Source: Marinomonas pollencensis
GTDB taxonomy: Bacteria > Pseudomonadota > Gammaproteobacteria > Pseudomonadales > Marinomonadaceae
Direction of reading: 5' to 3'
Assembly: GCF_003387375.1 (NCBI RefSeq)
Contig: NZ_QUNG01000001.1
Span: forward strand, 208,510 to 272,509
DNA: 64,000 nt
Part shown: positions 1 to 45,595 of the stretch, one piece after another
How positions within the stretch are numbered: the first letter of the stretch is position 1
Layout of the letters: each line of letters opens with the position of its first letter
Notes under the pieces: generated by a model
The model's database searches: none
Told to the model about the DNA's origin: nothing
What the model saw: only the letters and a program-made list of their open reading frames with translations
Translations under genes and position numbers: made by a program

Positions 1-2
1 GG

Positions 3-146
3 AATTTGCGTGAATAAAAAAGTGGGTCTAGATTTGAAACTAGACAGAGAGCAAGGGATTTGCTTCAGCCTCCAGGACGGAGGCTCTGTCTTTCTTTCAT
101 GACGAACCCAGCGCTGCAAGGACGCGGCTAAAGTACTAATTCATCA
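3..146. repeat. 144-bp direct repeat, copy 1 (structured)
   Basis: This stretch is identical to 503-646. It can fold as a three-way junction: outer stem GACAGA (43-48) with TCTGTC (85-90), enclosing hairpin AGCAA/TTGCT (50-64) and hairpin GCCTCC/GGAGGC (68-84). A competing hairpin GTCTAG (26-31) with CTAGAC (40-45) shares bases with the outer stem. No protein or known RNA family is recognised. The perfect identity suggests recent duplication or an element held under selection. Confidence 0.85.
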
Positions 147-1021
147 CGTATCTTTCTTTCGCTTTTCATACCCTTATCCGTTCTGTCTCATATCTTCCGT
201 TTCATGGAATCTTGTCGTTTTTTAATTGTGTATCCTTGCTATCGGCCTCTCAATTTCATTGGTTATAATTTAGCTATATATTCAAAATAAATACTCACAT
301 AGAGAATAATCTCACAAAAACTTATTCTATACCGCTATTGGTTTGAGCATCGCTATATTAAACTTGAAAAACTAAAATCACGTTTAAGTCAGAAAAAATC
401 AGTTGATCTTATTATCAAATAGGCTTTTAACGTGCCTGTCCTAGTAATCTTTATGTTGCTATAGCCTTCTAAAAACATAAGAAACATATTGTTACACTTT
501 GAAATTTGCGTGAATAAAAAAGTGGGTCTAGATTTGAAACTAGACAGAGAGCAAGGGATTTGCTTCAGCCTCCAGGACGGAGGCTCTGTCTTTCTTTCAT
601 GACGAACCCAGCGCTGCAAGGACGCGGCTAAAGTACTAATTCATCAGAAAAACGTTCTTGTATTATTTATGCGTTTTCAGTCATGACCTTGTTTCATTTA
701 AGATTATATGGGTATCAAGTGATTCGACTTGATTTCAGGCGCATTGTTTTAGCTTGGTAATACTTAAAAAAACAACCAAGACAGACACCTTAATAAAATA
801 ACTTAGACAGGCACTTTTATTGATAGTTATGCCTGGCTTAGTTATCTAAGCTATAGATTATATCGGTGACATAGTGCGCCAAACTGGATGAAATAGATTT
901 GATGTGACTAAAATCAGGGTGATTTTTTTAGGCTATGGCGCATTTTAGCGATGTTCACCCAATAAGCTATCTCAACTTATGGGTTGATTGAATCGTGGTC
1001 GTTTAAAAGTCGATTTTTAGT
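147..1021. other. AT-rich non-coding stretch with REP-like motifs
   Basis: Apart from the second 144-bp repeat, no gene is supported here. Short motifs related to GTGCCTGTCCTAGTTA occur at about 432-446, and in inverted orientation at about 772-791 and 799-814, with a partial copy at 829-846. The same motif recurs on the other side of the adjacent transposase gene, suggesting that these are its cognate repeats. Confidence 0.5.
503..646. repeat. 144-bp direct repeat, copy 2 (structured)
   Basis: Second copy of the element at 3-146, exactly 500 bp downstream in the same orientation, with the same foldable core. The 356 bp between the copies are AT-rich and hold no convincing gene. The similarity stops sharply after ATTCATCA in both copies, as expected of a defined unit. 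It could be a non-autonomous mobile element or a repeated structured RNA; the sequence does not decide. Confidence 0.85.
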
Positions 1022-1990
1022 CTATGCGAGGAGCTTTACGCTCTGCAGATTCGGTTTTCTGTGCCTGTGGTGGAAGCGACAATATTGTTCGATGCTATGC
1101 TCTTGTCCGACAAGGCTACTTGTTCTTTTTTCAAACTCGATCGCTATGCACAACCAGTTGTCTGATGAGATCTGTAATCGCTGTAAAATAGGCAATAACG
1201 AGGCATCGATCGCGCCTCGCTTGTCTGCTCTAATAATGCGTCCTGTCATGTCAACGAGCTCGAGGTAGTCCTTTAGTTTGAAAGGTAATCCAAAATGCGC
1301 TCCTTGCTGAGAGTCCCCCACAAAAGGAAATAGCGCCTTTGGTTGGCACAATTCAACAGACGTAACGCGCTTTTTTATACTGGTAAAATCTGAGGTTTCT
1401 GGCGTTTCACTCACTTTAGCTCGGACAGGGTTTAGATCCACATACGCCATACAGGCAATGAGTGCAGCTTCGTCTAGTAAGGCTTGAGACTTAAAGCGCC
1501 CTTCCCAAAAATGCCCGGTGCATTCATCTTCAATATTAGCTCGTCGCGCAATAGGTTCATTTAATTCTTTCATAAACCAGCTGATGTCAGTTAAGCGCTG
1601 GCGGTAAGCGTCAGCGGAGTCTTCGACTAAAGCCAAAGTACCGTCCGATAGGGGCTCTCCTCTCAGATATTGCTGTGTAAGATTTGTACCTTTGTGAAGC
1701 TTATGCCAACGCTGTAGCACTTCTCGCGTTGTCCATTTTTCTACTTTTTTGGAATCAATATGAAGAACGACATGGAGGTGGTTGCTCATAACTGCATAAG
1801 CACAGATATCAATGGAAAAGACACCGGCTAGAAACAATAATCGAGTTTCTACCCAACCACGGCGATGCTCGTAACTTGTTCCTGTTATATCGTCATCGCC
1901 GCATAAAAAAGCATGACGTACACAGCGAGATACGCAGTGATAATAAGGTGTATCCTCAAGACTGACTTGCTGATTCCTCGGTGTTGCCAT
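1022..1990 (-). CDS. REP-associated tyrosine transposase (RAYT, Y1_Tnp family)
   Basis: A 322-residue protein of the IS200-like/RAYT family of single-strand DNA transposases that act on REP repeats. The N-terminal block TPYYHCVSRCVRHAFLCG, the HUH metal-binding motif in SNHLHVVLH and the later YVDLNPVRA block are typical of the group. The ATG at 1990 is preferred over an upstream TTG at 2011 because GAGGA lies about 8 bases before it and MATPRNQQ is a family-like N terminus. The gene is complete and is flanked on both sides by short TGCCTGTC motifs in opposite orientations. A LexA-like palindrome lies 30 bp upstream, so SOS control is inferred. Such proteins are usually single-copy and domesticated rather than classical insertion sequences. 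Confidence 0.88.
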   Translation of the reverse strand: MATPRNQQVSLEDTPYYHCVSRCVRHAFLCGDDDITGTSYEHRRGWVETRLLFLAGVFSIDICAYAVMSNHLHVVLHIDSKKVEKWTTREVLQRWHKLHKGTNLTQQYLRGEPLSDGTLALVEDSADAYRQRLTDISWFMKELNEPIARRANIEDECTGHFWEGRFKSQALLDEAALIACMAYVDLNPVRAKVSETPETSDFTSIKKRVTSVELCQPKALFPFVGDSQQGAHFGLPFKLKDYLELVDMTGRIIRADKRGAIDASLLPILQRLQISSDNWLCIAIEFEKRTSSLVGQEHSIEQYCRFHHRHRKPNLQSVKLLA

Positions 1991-2019
1991 GAGACTATCC
2001 TCATTGAACAAAAAATATA

Positions 2020-2035
2020 CTGTAATTATATACAG
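2020..2035 (-). promoter_or_regulatory. LexA-like SOS box
   Basis: CTGTAATTATATACAG fits the gammaproteobacterial LexA core CTG-N10-CAG with an AT-rich centre, and the palindrome extends by one base each side to ACTGTA/TACAGT. It lies 30 bp upstream of the transposase start, where a repressor would block transcription. The match is seen directly; regulation is inference. Confidence 0.6.
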
Positions 2036-2080
2036 TGATCTAATATTCCGCCAAGAAAACTTTTTAAGTTGACAGTAAAG

Positions 2081-2198
2081 GTGCCTGTCCTGATAAGCCT
2101 CTGATAAGCATGCCTGTCTTAGTTAATGGTCTTGATAAGCCTCATAAATAAGTATGCCTGTCCTAATAAGCCTCCTGATAAGTATGCCTGTCTTGGTT
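2081..2198 (+). repeat. Cluster of four REP-like TGCCTGTC motifs
   Basis: Four copies of TGCCTGTCCTGATAA or TGCCTGTCTTAGTTA variants begin at about 2082, 2111, 2155 and 2185, separated by ATAAGCCTCCTGATAAGTA-like spacers. The inverted form of the motif is found left of the transposase gene (772-814), so the gene is bracketed in the way REP/BIME units bracket RAYT genes. The last copy touches the cydC stop codon. Confidence 0.6.
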
Positions 2199-3861
2199 AG
2201 AGTTGGATGGTTTTGGCGTGGTCGCTGAGTGGGTTTGGGATGTGGCTGATGAGTACCAGTGTTTGAGGTTGGTAGTCGTTTTGTAGTGTGTGGCAGATTT
2301 GTTTGATGCTTTCACTGTCTAGTCCGTCGAAGGGTTCGTCTAGTAATAAGATTGGCGTTTTTCTTAATAGTAGTCGTGCGAGCACTAGGCGTTTGCGTTG
2401 GCCGCCGGATAAGTTTCGTCCTTGTGCTCCTAGTAAGGTGTTGAGTCCTTGGGGGAGGCTTCGGGCCCAGTTGCCGAGGGCGACGGCATCGAGTACTTTC
2501 CAGAGTTCTTGGTCTGTGGCTTCTAGGGCGCCTAGGCGTAAGTTGGCCTGTAGTGATTGCTGGAAGACGTAGGGCGTTTGAGGCAGGTAGCTCAGTTGAG
2601 ATTGATATGCTTTGTTGTCGTATAGCTGGCTTACTTCACCGTTTATCCAGGCTTGCCCTTCGCTCAAGCAATCTCCTGCTATTGCGGCTAATAATGTTGA
2701 TTTACCACAACCACTACCCCCTTGTAGCCAGATGATGTCATTGACTTTTAGGCTCATGGTGATGGGCGCGTTGCCGAGCCCTGAGCTTAGGTGATAGCCT
2801 CGAAGCTCGGTGAGTTCTATCTGTGTGATGGGGGCTAGAGGTGCTTGCGTTGGCGTCTCTTTTGTCTTTTTTGCCGAATGCAATTGGTTTAAGCGACGAA
2901 TCCCTACTTGGGACTGACCTTGTGCGACAAATGACTGGGACAAAGGCAGTGCTAGTTCGTTGACTGCCAGTACAGATAACACCAGAGCCACGACCCAGGT
3001 TGCTTGTACGCCATGAATTAAGGTTAATTCTCCAGTGCTTGCTTGGTAGTCCATTAGTAGATAAAAAAAGCTCGCTAATAAGCCAATTGTAACAGTATAA
3101 GAAGCCAACCTACCTAGGCTAATCGCTTGTTGAATGGTGACTTCTGCTTTTTTCTGGCGCTTGTCTAATTGCCCTAAACGTTCAGCATAAGTTTGCCAAT
3201 GCCCGCGAATGGTCAAGGTGATCAAGGCGGAGAATAAGCTGACAAAACGCCCTCGTCGATGGGTGCCTAAAATCTGTCCGACATGGACACTGTGGCTGGC
3301 ATAACGTCCGCATAAATAGGGCACCAAGATTAAATGCAGTAAGGCGGCGATCAATATAGGCAAAAGCAGTGAGGGCGTAATCAGATAGGCGACAACGCTC
3401 ACTCCAAGGTAGGCTAATAAGGCGTAAGTCCAAGGCAACATGACGACTAGTGGCCAACGAATAATTTGATCTAAGTCGCTCACTAAGCGCTGTAATAAGT
3501 CGCCTCGACTTTGCTGATGTAGGTTTGCTGGGTCTTTTTCAACCCGTTGATCCCACACCCATAAACGCAACGTTTTGAGCAATCCTAATAAGTGTTCATG
3601 AGCAGAAACTTGTTCACCATAACGGCCTGCGGTACGCAAAATAGCCATTAAGCGCACTAGCGCCCCTGGGGTAAAATAGTTAAACCCATGGGCCAGTCCC
3701 AGCACGCCAGCAAGGCCCGCGGCTGATAAGAACCAACCCGATATACCGAGTAAGGCAACCCCTGCAACGCTGGCCATCACCCCCAATAATAGTGGAATAG
3801 CAAAGCCCCAAGGGTTTGCCCATAATAGACGCTTAAGCGATAGCTTGGTGACTTTGCTCAT
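2197..3861 (-). CDS. cydC: Heterodimeric thiol ABC exporter subunit CydC
   Basis: A 554-residue ABC half-transporter. In the CydDC family it pairs with CydD to export glutathione and cysteine to the periplasm, which is needed to assemble cytochrome bd. The first ~300 residues hold hydrophobic segments (for example residues 14-55 and 140-185). The nucleotide-binding domain follows, with Walker A GGSGCGKSTLL near 380, signature LSGGQRKR near 488 and Walker B LLLDEPFDGLD near 508. It overlaps the 3' end of cydD by 29 bp and is last in cydABXDC, so it is probably translated with cydD. The stop codon lies inside the REP-like cluster. Length and motifs look normal. Confidence 0.95.
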   Translation of the reverse strand: MSKVTKLSLKRLLWANPWGFAIPLLLGVMASVAGVALLGISGWFLSAAGLAGVLGLAHGFNYFTPGALVRLMAILRTAGRYGEQVSAHEHLLGLLKTLRLWVWDQRVEKDPANLHQQSRGDLLQRLVSDLDQIIRWPLVVMLPWTYALLAYLGVSVVAYLITPSLLLPILIAALLHLILVPYLCGRYASHSVHVGQILGTHRRGRFVSLFSALITLTIRGHWQTYAERLGQLDKRQKKAEVTIQQAISLGRLASYTVTIGLLASFFYLLMDYQASTGELTLIHGVQATWVVALVLSVLAVNELALPLSQSFVAQGQSQVGIRRLNQLHSAKKTKETPTQAPLAPITQIELTELRGYHLSSGLGNAPITMSLKVNDIIWLQGGSGCGKSTLLAAIAGDCLSEGQAWINGEVSQLYDNKAYQSQLSYLPQTPYVFQQSLQANLRLGALEATDQELWKVLDAVALGNWARSLPQGLNTLLGAQGRNLSGGQRKRLVLARLLLRKTPILLLDEPFDGLDSESIKQICHTLQNDYQPQTLVLISHIPNPLSDHAKTIQL

Positions 3862-5590
3862 GCAAACCTCCGTGGGTTAAATTCCAATGTCTGTCGACCC
3901 AAGAAATGGGGTGGGTATCGTGGCTCACCACCAGCAAGGTTTTGCCTTTTGAAACACGGTTTAAGGTGTCTAGTACTGCGTTTGCTGTGTCTTCATCTAA
4001 GCCGGAACAAGGCTCATCTAGCAACCAAACATCAGCATTGGAGAGCAGCGCCCGAGCAATCGATAAGCGTTGCATCTGGCCACCTGACAAACCCGCTCCG
4101 AGCTCGGTTAATTTACTTTCCATACCGTTTGGTAAGGCATCTACAAAGTCAGCACATTGGCTTTTTTCTAAGGCGTCTCGTAACGCCTGCTCACTCGGTG
4201 GTTGAATGCCCAACACTAAATTTTGACGAATACTACCATTGACCCATTCTGGGGTTTGCGGCAGCCAAGCAAGCCTGCTGCGCCAGGCTGTTAAATCCAC
4301 TGCGTCCAGACTTTTATCATAAACAAAGCATTCGCCTTGATAGCCAGTTTCAAAACCAAGTAATAAGTGCAATAAGCTCGATTTACCCACTCCAGATTCG
4401 CCACTTAACCAGATCCGCTCACCTTCTCGTATCTGATTGGTAATGGGCGCCAATCGTGAACGGCCGGCTTCTTGCCAACTTAACTGATGAAACGTTAACA
4501 ATGAGCTTGATTGAGTTTTTACCAATGATAAGTGTGTTCCTTGCGCAGGCAGATTGACTTCGGCTGGTTGCTGTTGTGTCACAAGAATTTCTAGCAATGC
4601 GGTGGCAGCTGCTTCGGCTTTTTGTTTGGCATGATAGTCGTTGCCTAACTGGCGCAAGGGCAAATAAAATTCTGGGGCCAGTAGCAGCAAAAAGAAAGCT
4701 TGCGTTAAGGTCACTGGCGCTTCGCCTTTTGCCCAAGGCAACTGCTCTAACAACCCCAAACCTAAATAGAGAGCAATCATGGCAATTGATAACGAAGCAA
4801 ATAATTCAAGCGTCGCAGTGGACAAAAATGCCAAGCGCAATACGCCCATGGTGGTTCTTTGATACGCACTGGCGCTGTCGCCTAAGCGCTGTTTGGCGTG
4901 GGCGCTACGACCAAGGCGCTTAAGTTCAGCAAGCCCTTGGTTTAAATCCATAAATTGGTTCGACAGCATTGCTAATACACGAAACTGTCGTCGGTTGGCT
5001 TGTGCCGCTTTATAGCCAACAAAAATCATAAATACGATCACCAAAGGTGCGGTTATCATAAAAATGCCAAACGCAATCAAGGACACGGGTAAGACGGCGA
5101 GTAAAATAACGCAGGGAATCAATGACACCATAAAGAGTTGTGGTTTATAGCGACTAAAGTAATCGTCCAGTGCATCGACTTGTTCGTAGACCCGGGTCGA
5201 TAAGGCGGCATCTTCATCAATGCGTAACCGCGAAGGCCCTAATTGGGTCAAATGGTCGATGATTTTGGTCCGTAATGAATAACGAATACTGCGGCTCGCA
5301 CCCGCGCTTAGTCGCTCTCGACCAAAGCTGGTCAGCGCACGAATAAACAGGGCCGATAACGCCATCAATAATAATGAAACAGAAAAAGTGCCAGTAATCA
5401 CCAAATCCGAAAATACATTCGCCAACGTCCAAGCTTGAACCACCAGCGAGACGGTAAACACTATGCCGAGTAATTGCACCAGGCGATAGCGTTTTGACTG
5501 ACAGTCAGCCCATTCGTTTAAGAACGCCATTTCTGGCGTTTTTAGCCTTTTTTGTTTGGTTGGCTTTGGCACTTTTTCTCGCTTCGACAT
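3833..5590 (-). CDS. cydD: Heterodimeric thiol ABC exporter subunit CydD
   Basis: A 585-residue ABC half-transporter, partner of CydC in periplasmic thiol export and cytochrome bd maturation. A basic N terminus is followed by membrane segments (about residues 35-75, 150-200 and 265-315). The ATPase domain carries Walker A GESGVGKSSLL, signature LSGGQMQRLS and Walker B VWLLDEPCSGLD. The gene begins 5 bp after the cydX stop and overlaps cydC. Order cydD then cydC directly behind cydABX is a common arrangement in proteobacteria and supports one transcript. Nothing is truncated. Confidence 0.95.
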   Translation of the reverse strand: MSKREKVPKPTKQKRLKTPEMAFLNEWADCQSKRYRLVQLLGIVFTVSLVVQAWTLANVFSDLVITGTFSVSLLLMALSALFIRALTSFGRERLSAGASRSIRYSLRTKIIDHLTQLGPSRLRIDEDAALSTRVYEQVDALDDYFSRYKPQLFMVSLIPCVILLAVLPVSLIAFGIFMITAPLVIVFMIFVGYKAAQANRRQFRVLAMLSNQFMDLNQGLAELKRLGRSAHAKQRLGDSASAYQRTTMGVLRLAFLSTATLELFASLSIAMIALYLGLGLLEQLPWAKGEAPVTLTQAFFLLLLAPEFYLPLRQLGNDYHAKQKAEAAATALLEILVTQQQPAEVNLPAQGTHLSLVKTQSSSLLTFHQLSWQEAGRSRLAPITNQIREGERIWLSGESGVGKSSLLHLLLGFETGYQGECFVYDKSLDAVDLTAWRSRLAWLPQTPEWVNGSIRQNLVLGIQPPSEQALRDALEKSQCADFVDALPNGMESKLTELGAGLSGGQMQRLSIARALLSNADVWLLDEPCSGLDEDTANAVLDTLNRVSKGKTLLVVSHDTHPISWVDRHWNLTHGGLHEQSHQAIA

Positions 5591-44260: not shown

Positions 44261-45595
44261 TTAGATCTGAGTTTCTTCAGCGTCAGTGACATCGTTAGTT
44301 GTCAAAGAAATACCGTACGCTTTCGCAACAACAACCATTTGGTCGCCTAAACGACGTAGCTCATTTTTCAAGGTTACAATATTTTGTACGCTGGCTTCGT
44401 TTTCAGGATGAATTTGGTAATCGAAGTGCATGGTGGTCGTTGCCAACTGGTTAATTTTGGCAATACGCATTTCGATGTCAGCCATTAACGCTTTGATTTT
44501 AGCTTGCTCTTCGCTTGACAGGTTATCGAAGAAGGCTGGCCCTACTTTTTTCCCTTTGTACTCACCTAGCAAGACGTTTTTGATGCCTTGGTAGTTTAAG
44601 TCGATATCACGGTGTGTATTATCAGAGAAACAAGAATGCTCGTCTTCTTCACTTGGTGTTAGTACCGCAACCGCAATTCGCTCATTGGCCAATTCAGATT
44701 TAGAAAACACACCCATTGCTGAGAAAATTTGTTTCAAAGACGTCGCTGTAGAGAGGTTTTTATCCTTTTCAGCACCGCTTAATTGGTCTAACAAGGCCGC
44801 ACGATATAGGCCGTTATTACCAATGATTTTTGTATTCCACGCACTAGACACTTTCGCTAGGTCGTAAACCAACTTGTCTGTTGCTGCTTTTAAGTAATCT
44901 AAACGGCGCTGTTTCAATTTATCCGTGGTGAAATCAGACAATGGGCGCTGACCAGCTGTCATGGCGCCATTGGTGATCTTGTCTTCAATCATATTGTTGT
45001 AGTCTTGGTCTTGACCCCACAATAGAAACTCGATCGCGTGGTAGCCACTTGCCACGTTCGCATCGCCACCGTTTTCATTCAATTCAGTCAGCACTTCAGG
45101 GGTGATTTTAGTGACATTTACTGGCGCTGCGTCTTCACCACCTGGAGTGAATACGCCTTTAGTATCAATAATATTACCGCTGGTACGCTGATAGTTTGCA
45201 TCTTCTGTATAGTCAATCAGGTTTTCATCTAGTGGCCAAGCGTTAATCTGACCTTCTAAGCCACCGTAGGCTTCTGCTACCCAGCCATCTTCAGCATCAA
45301 TCGGGCCATTAGACAAACGGAAAATCTCTGTTGTACCGTAACTTTCACGAGAAGCTAACCAAGCATTTTTAGCTGCTTGTAGGGTTTCTGCTGTGGGATT
45401 TTTGGCAAAAGCATCAATCGCCACTTTAAGAGCTTTTGCGCCTTCTAATGCATCTTGGTAGTTCGCAGTCGCTATGGTTGCGTAGGTATTCAAGGTGGCA
45501 CGTTGTGCACTTTGAGACACAGCAGCCATACTTGGCATAGAAAGGCTAAGTGTTGCCCCTACAATAAGGGTATTTAGAATTGTTCTCACTTTCAT
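44261..45595 (-). CDS. Imelysin family iron-regulated protein (M75/IrpA-like)
   Basis: A 444-residue exported protein. Signal peptide MKVRTILNTLIVGATLSLSMPSMA. The mature part has the imelysin signature GYHAIEFLLWGQD with the HxxE metal-binding motif, an IDAEDGWVAEAYGGLEG block and the DEHSCFSDNTHRDI motif. These match IrpA/ICMP-type proteins and the M75 domain of EfeO. GGAG precedes ATG. It follows the FTR1 permease gene by 77 bp. It likely binds iron in the periplasm; protease activity of this family is doubtful. Confidence 0.92.
   Translation of the reverse strand: MKVRTILNTLIVGATLSLSMPSMAAVSQSAQRATLNTYATIATANYQDALEGAKALKVAIDAFAKNPTAETLQAAKNAWLASRESYGTTEIFRLSNGPIDAEDGWVAEAYGGLEGQINAWPLDENLIDYTEDANYQRTSGNIIDTKGVFTPGGEDAAPVNVTKITPEVLTELNENGGDANVASGYHAIEFLLWGQDQDYNNMIEDKITNGAMTAGQRPLSDFTTDKLKQRRLDYLKAATDKLVYDLAKVSSAWNTKIIGNNGLYRAALLDQLSGAEKDKNLSTATSLKQIFSAMGVFSKSELANERIAVAVLTPSEEDEHSCFSDNTHRDIDLNYQGIKNVLLGEYKGKKVGPAFFDNLSSEEQAKIKALMADIEMRIAKINQLATTTMHFDYQIHPENEASVQNIVTLKNELRRLGDQMVVVAKAYGISLTTNDVTDAEETQI

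Follow-up and report, generated by a model that had tools for sequence, protein, structure and literature searches.

We propose that a functional LexA operator lies across the -10 promoter element of an IS-like Y1 HUH element of Marinomonas pollencensis, with transposase production and element movement timed by DNA damage, a reading to which we give a probability of about 0.8. The element was found in a window of 64,000 nucleotides, by which we mean the whole stretch of DNA analysed, and its 322-aa transposase would probably move DNA chiefly at times of chromosome damage. Coordinates of the features are collected in the table.

The sequence-only reading had placed an SOS-type LexA box 30 bp before the start codon of a RAYT-like HUH transposase gene. 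The box is real, with a gap of 29 bp to the ATG at 1990, and both its score and its conservation support the operator assignment. On a matrix built from boxes of the same genome, RAYT boxes excluded, it reaches 21.4 bits, inside the range of 19.3-24.3 bits spanned by the SOS-gene boxes of this genome (20.1 bits for lexA's own box and 22.1 bits for that of recA). The matrix was derived from the boxes of lexA/dinG, recA, uvrA, dinB, two umuD genes, ruvC and topB (DNA topoisomerase III), together with two more strong boxes, one at a yebG-type promoter and one intergenic; the SOS regulon was assembled from pattern matches and fetched regions, with gene names from NCBIfam. The runner-up site in the 64 kb scores 12.0 bits on the same matrix, and the maximum over 1124 control windows of 120 bp each is 12.8 bits. 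The bare pattern CTGT-N8-ACAG with one mismatch allowed occurs 25 times in the 64 kb vs 21.5 expected, which is not above chance; genome-wide, 25 sites lie within three mismatches of the ideal box vs 4 for a reversed control pattern. This motif is the expected target because the LexA of the genome keeps an E. coli-type recognition helix: in an alignment with E. coli LexA the recognition-helix stretch SPNAAEEHLKALA is identical and the VAAG cleavage region is retained, by which the protein (L018) is judged to be E. coli-like. Taken on score and conservation, the box in front of the transposase gene is almost certainly a LexA operator.

The operator overlaps the promoter, which is itself predicted. 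The pair TTGGCG/TATAAT is the only promoter-like site between 1950 and 2250; with 0.9 such sites expected, the scan by itself does not reach significance. Relatives carry TTGACC or TTGACG at the -35 position and have the box over TATAAT or TATATT. The mechanical open reading frame begins at a TTG at 2011; the alignment favours the ATG, whose methionine (M1) is invariant across 40 homologues.

Features of the element in the window and of related repeats in its genome (G000)
Feature	Position	Strand	Basis or remark
RAYT-like HUH/Y1 transposase, 322 aa	1022..1990	-	motifs and predicted fold
GAGGA, probable ribosome-binding site before ATG 1990	1998..2002	-	sequence
LexA operator (predicted)	2020..2035	.	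CTGTAATTATATACAG; on the gene strand CTGTATATAATTACAG; matrix score and conservation in 47 Marinomonas homologues
Predicted -10 hexamer TATAAT	2025..2030	-	wholly within the LexA box
Predicted -35 hexamer TTGGCG, 18-bp spacer	2049..2054	-	promoter scan
Four TGCCTGTC(C/T) tags, array upstream of the gene	2082..2193 (2082, 2111, 2155, 2185)	+	sequence
TGCCTGTCT tag on the downstream side, opposite in orientation to the upstream tags; probable right end	805..813	-	sequence
50-bp mini-elements with inverted GACAGGCA tags	G000:C4:3384-3433, 3945-3994, 294057-294106; C10:35402-35451, 44954-45003		

Other LexA-like boxes of the genome deserve mention in their own right. A near-perfect box lies 11 bp before topB (L005:2001-2016, G000:C1:360090), and there are two separate boxed umuD genes. 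A strong pair of boxes 196 bp apart (G000:C2:306640-306655 and 306836-306851) has no obvious downstream gene, and a single strong box (G000:C2:230722-230737) lies between convergent genes; such sites may possibly mark small SOS genes or RNAs.

The gene product was assigned from conserved residues and predicted structure. Invariance of H71 and H73 (NHLH), W162-E163 and Y183 within YVDLNP in the homologue alignment, where N187-P188 are invariant as well, indicates a Y1 HUH protein. The NCBIfam model REP_Tyr_transpos is matched with an E-value of 2e-9, at a score under the family cut-off (37 vs 80 bits). The closest fold to the AlphaFold model (mean pLDDT 73) is 4ER8, a REP-associated tyrosine transposase (probability 1.00, E-value 1.2e-3), followed by the ISDra2 and IS608 transposases. 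Pfam gave no domain anywhere in the 322-aa protein, the C-terminal region included, where a TIRYT (terminal-inverted-repeat tyrosine transposase) would have a helix-turn-helix, and a sequence search of the PDB with this protein gave no match, so that only the fold search connects it to known structures. The closest named homologues are from Marinomonas, and the closest homologues of all are carried by genus-mates.

A domesticated single-copy RAYT gene had been assumed at first. The gene belongs instead to a multicopy group, with five full-length copies in the genome of the window and up to 8 per genome in relatives. Within one genome, near-identical paralogs match over a unit of ~1.2-1.3 kb, beyond which the similarity stops abruptly; the unit contains the box and is bounded by a GACACCCA- or GACAGGCA-type tag at its left end and by an inverted tag at its right end. 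Examples are the pairs L154/L158 (97.9% identical over 1308 bp) and L181/L045 (98.0% over 1270 bp), and the further near-identical pairs L168/L170 and L147/L148 share a tag-bounded unit. By these comparisons, ~1.3-kb units have evidently moved recently within genomes of relatives. The window copy is without a near-identical sister, its closest in-genome paralog being 73% identical, and may thus have stopped moving. This pattern bears on the best-surviving alternative, that LexA does bind and the gene is a domesticated, repair-associated nuclease of the host SOS regulon that does not move. Other RAYT groups have been described as vertically inherited and domesticated (PMC8049555), and several Marinomonas genomes have a single boxed copy. 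We nevertheless regard this explanation as unlikely in view of the high copy numbers and of boxed copies in five genomes that are ~94-98% identical over ~1.2-1.3 kb between unrelated flanks.

For the conservation analysis, ~200 homologues were gathered with their upstream DNA. The proposed check of orthologous promoters came out in favour of the box, which scores above the null in 47 of the 95 full-length Marinomonas homologues and recurs in separate clades elsewhere; at least one boxed gene is present in 26 of 31 Marinomonas genomes. Among the 47 boxed genes, the mean information per box column is 1.28 bits vs 0.32 in the flanks, conservation that in part reflects shared descent; the outer CTG/CAG reach 1.93 bits (96-99% conserved), and an extended TA-CTG...CAG-TA palindrome is visible. 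The boxed Marinomonas genes are spread over several deep subclades; their box cores differ (CTGTATATAATTACAG, CTGTATATTTAACCAG, CTGTATATTTATACAG and CTGTATAAATAAACAG), and the box-to-gene spacings are 24-34 or 46-53 bp. Outside the genus, all seven sampled copies of another family (f7; genomes G055 and G098) have a strong box, as does one copy in genome G075, all in distant clades; the lexA genes of these genomes have a box of the same kind, weaker in G075.

The second alternative holds that the palindrome is the transposase's own binding or hairpin site, used for auto-regulation or cleavage, and resembles a LexA box by coincidence. HUH transposases bind hairpins, and the box is a near-perfect palindrome inside a mobile unit. 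However, the motif is the same as that in the lexA, recA, umuD and topB promoters of the genome, boxless paralogs keep their tags and intact genes, and the boxes occur in the differing sequence contexts and spacings given above, all of which makes a transposase site improbable. That an AT-rich -10 region resembles a LexA box by chance is very improbable, since, although shuffled sequence gives relaxed matches just as often as the window does, the score is far above the null and the outer CTG/CAG are conserved where a -10 element does not require them.

The box is absent from about half of the Marinomonas homologues and from the upstream DNA of most relatives in Shewanella, Colwellia and Pseudoalteromonas; SOS control is therefore not needed for persistence of the family. 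The fewest box changes on the tree number 10, and recurrent gain and repeated loss both fit. Two boxes of the type CTATATAT (L207, L208) exceed the threshold but have no CTG, and they were not taken as independent gains. In Shewanella and Colwellia homologues (L108, L125, L131, L110, L112), half-box-like sequences TTGTATATATTTCCAT and CTGGTTAAATATTCAA were seen at about -45; they are weak (5-9 bits), were left out of the box counts and may be either decayed LexA boxes or mere promoter elements.

Among boxless copies, 94% have a paralog with at least 80% identity in the same genome, vs 57% among boxed copies (rank test on paralog identity, p 0.0005). A link between box loss and amplification is nevertheless no more than a lead, as the difference disappears when phylogenetically independent pairs are compared (7 pairs, median p 1). 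The boxless clades are the most amplified within genomes (Marinomonas G047, G025, G017, G030, G023, G001 and G007), which is suggestive of escape from repression, though not significant with independent pairs.

The tags connect the element to dispersed repeats. The nearest left-end tag is the one at 2082, which reads GGACAGGCA on the gene strand, and a second variant tag lies downstream of the gene at 779-787. Left and right tag variants match in 42 of the 57 elements with both tags (21 GACAGGCA and 21 GACACCCA), an agreement inflated by shared descent. Terminal inverted repeats at the element ends, a TIRYT feature, are thus present in the form of matching tags and a unit ending at them. The GACAGGCA-type tag RTGCCTGTCYTR is found at 58 places in the genome of the window vs one in the control, in part arranged in ~30-bp arrays, and five inverted tag pairs are each exactly 50 bp long with varied insides. 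These mini-elements look like the REPINs of subclass 2.3 transposases, or a small REPIN population. The REP mobility proposed in the sequence-only reading is suggested to this extent by the dispersed tags and inverted pairs; no REPs of the canonical GT[AG]G kind were noticed, the tags are non-canonical, and their number is modest and below that of classical REPs.

Repeats of other kinds were also noted. A 143-bp repeat is present in 100% identical form at 4-146 and 504-650 of the window, with a third partial copy at G000:C1:208318-208413. These three local copies lie beside the RAYT gene and contain internal inverted repeats (GCCTCCAGGACGGAGGC); there are no copies elsewhere in the genome, and Rfam gave no match in window positions 1-2300, which include the repeat. 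An array of ~30-bp repeats (TTAAC-RTGCCTGTYYTRG-TTAA...) at L264:4963-5200 (G000:C1:202963-203200) runs into the start of an open reading frame.

In the mechanism that we propose, LexA would block RNA polymerase in undamaged cells and keep the transposase off. Upon DNA damage, RecA filaments on single-stranded DNA would promote LexA self-cleavage and the transposase would be made. The single-stranded DNA on which this enzyme presumably acts, at the GACACCCA/GACAGGCA ends, would be plentiful at that very moment, so that the element, and perhaps the 50-bp mini-elements sharing its tags as well, would excise and insert in time with repair. LexA binding, induction, nuclease activity, damage-induced transposition and mini-element mobilisation are all steps that we infer from sequence. 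A broader scenario, which we offer as a tentative one that could well be wrong, is that a RAYT-type group has come under host LexA independently more than once, that damage sets off pulses of movement of both the element and the mini-elements, and that lineages that lost the operator escaped this restraint.

Regulation and triggers of RAYT-type transposases are largely obscure, and REP/REPIN movement has rarely been tied to a stimulus. With a LexA operator there is a concrete trigger to apply (mitomycin C or UV) and a simple mutation of the box to make (CAG to ACT); boxless paralogs alongside it in one cell serve as natural controls, and damage-coupled movement of single-strand transposons becomes directly testable. 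In the literature searched, which left subscription papers mostly outside, LexA and RAYT/TnpA_REP appeared together only in unrelated co-mentions. SOS-controlled transposases are already known; to our knowledge, the present case is the first in which sequence evidence points to a RAYT-type element under LexA control, at the scale of a genus and in more than one lineage.

By its sequence the transposase appears closest to the RAYT-related TnpA_Y1 subclass 2.3, a multicopy group in which REPs are reportedly absent (PMC6006769). The length of 322 aa, YVDLNP and WE match this subclass (PMC6006769, Table 1), which is characterised by ~325 aa, a long C-terminal tail, several diverged copies per genome and occurrence in gammaproteobacteria; we do not call the protein a strict member because its HUH motif reads NHLH and not NHYH. 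The published description (PMC6006769) is without REP-like sequences or regulation, whereas tags, unit boundaries and a LexA box are found here. The E. coli RAYT/TnpA_REP with its REPINs (4ER8; subclass 2.2) is the best fold match and is likewise flanked by short dispersed repeats, but it is a low-copy protein of 165 aa with GT[AG]G-tagged REPs, in contrast to the 322-aa, multicopy transposase with GACACCCA/GACAGGCA tags. ISDra2 (IS200/IS605) of Deinococcus, also with a Y1 HUH transposase, shows damage-triggered movement through the supply of single-stranded DNA, without induced transposase expression (PMC2806898). The mobility of integron integrases, IS10 and Tn5 is SOS-linked as proposed here, although the enzyme chemistry differs and, for Tn5, the involvement of LexA is contested (PMC13393415). 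The nearest precedent is found in the SOS-controlled ISCR/IS91-like HUH transposases rcr1, rcr2 and rcr8, for which LexA binding and induction were shown experimentally (PMC13393415, June 2026) and whose authors proposed the same logic of single-stranded DNA and SOS. Both systems combine a single-strand HUH transposase with a CTGT-N8-ACAG box overlapping the transposase -10; ISCR elements belong to another HUH family with another architecture (terIS/oriIS), and their LexA control is established by experiment, that of the Marinomonas element predicted from sequence.
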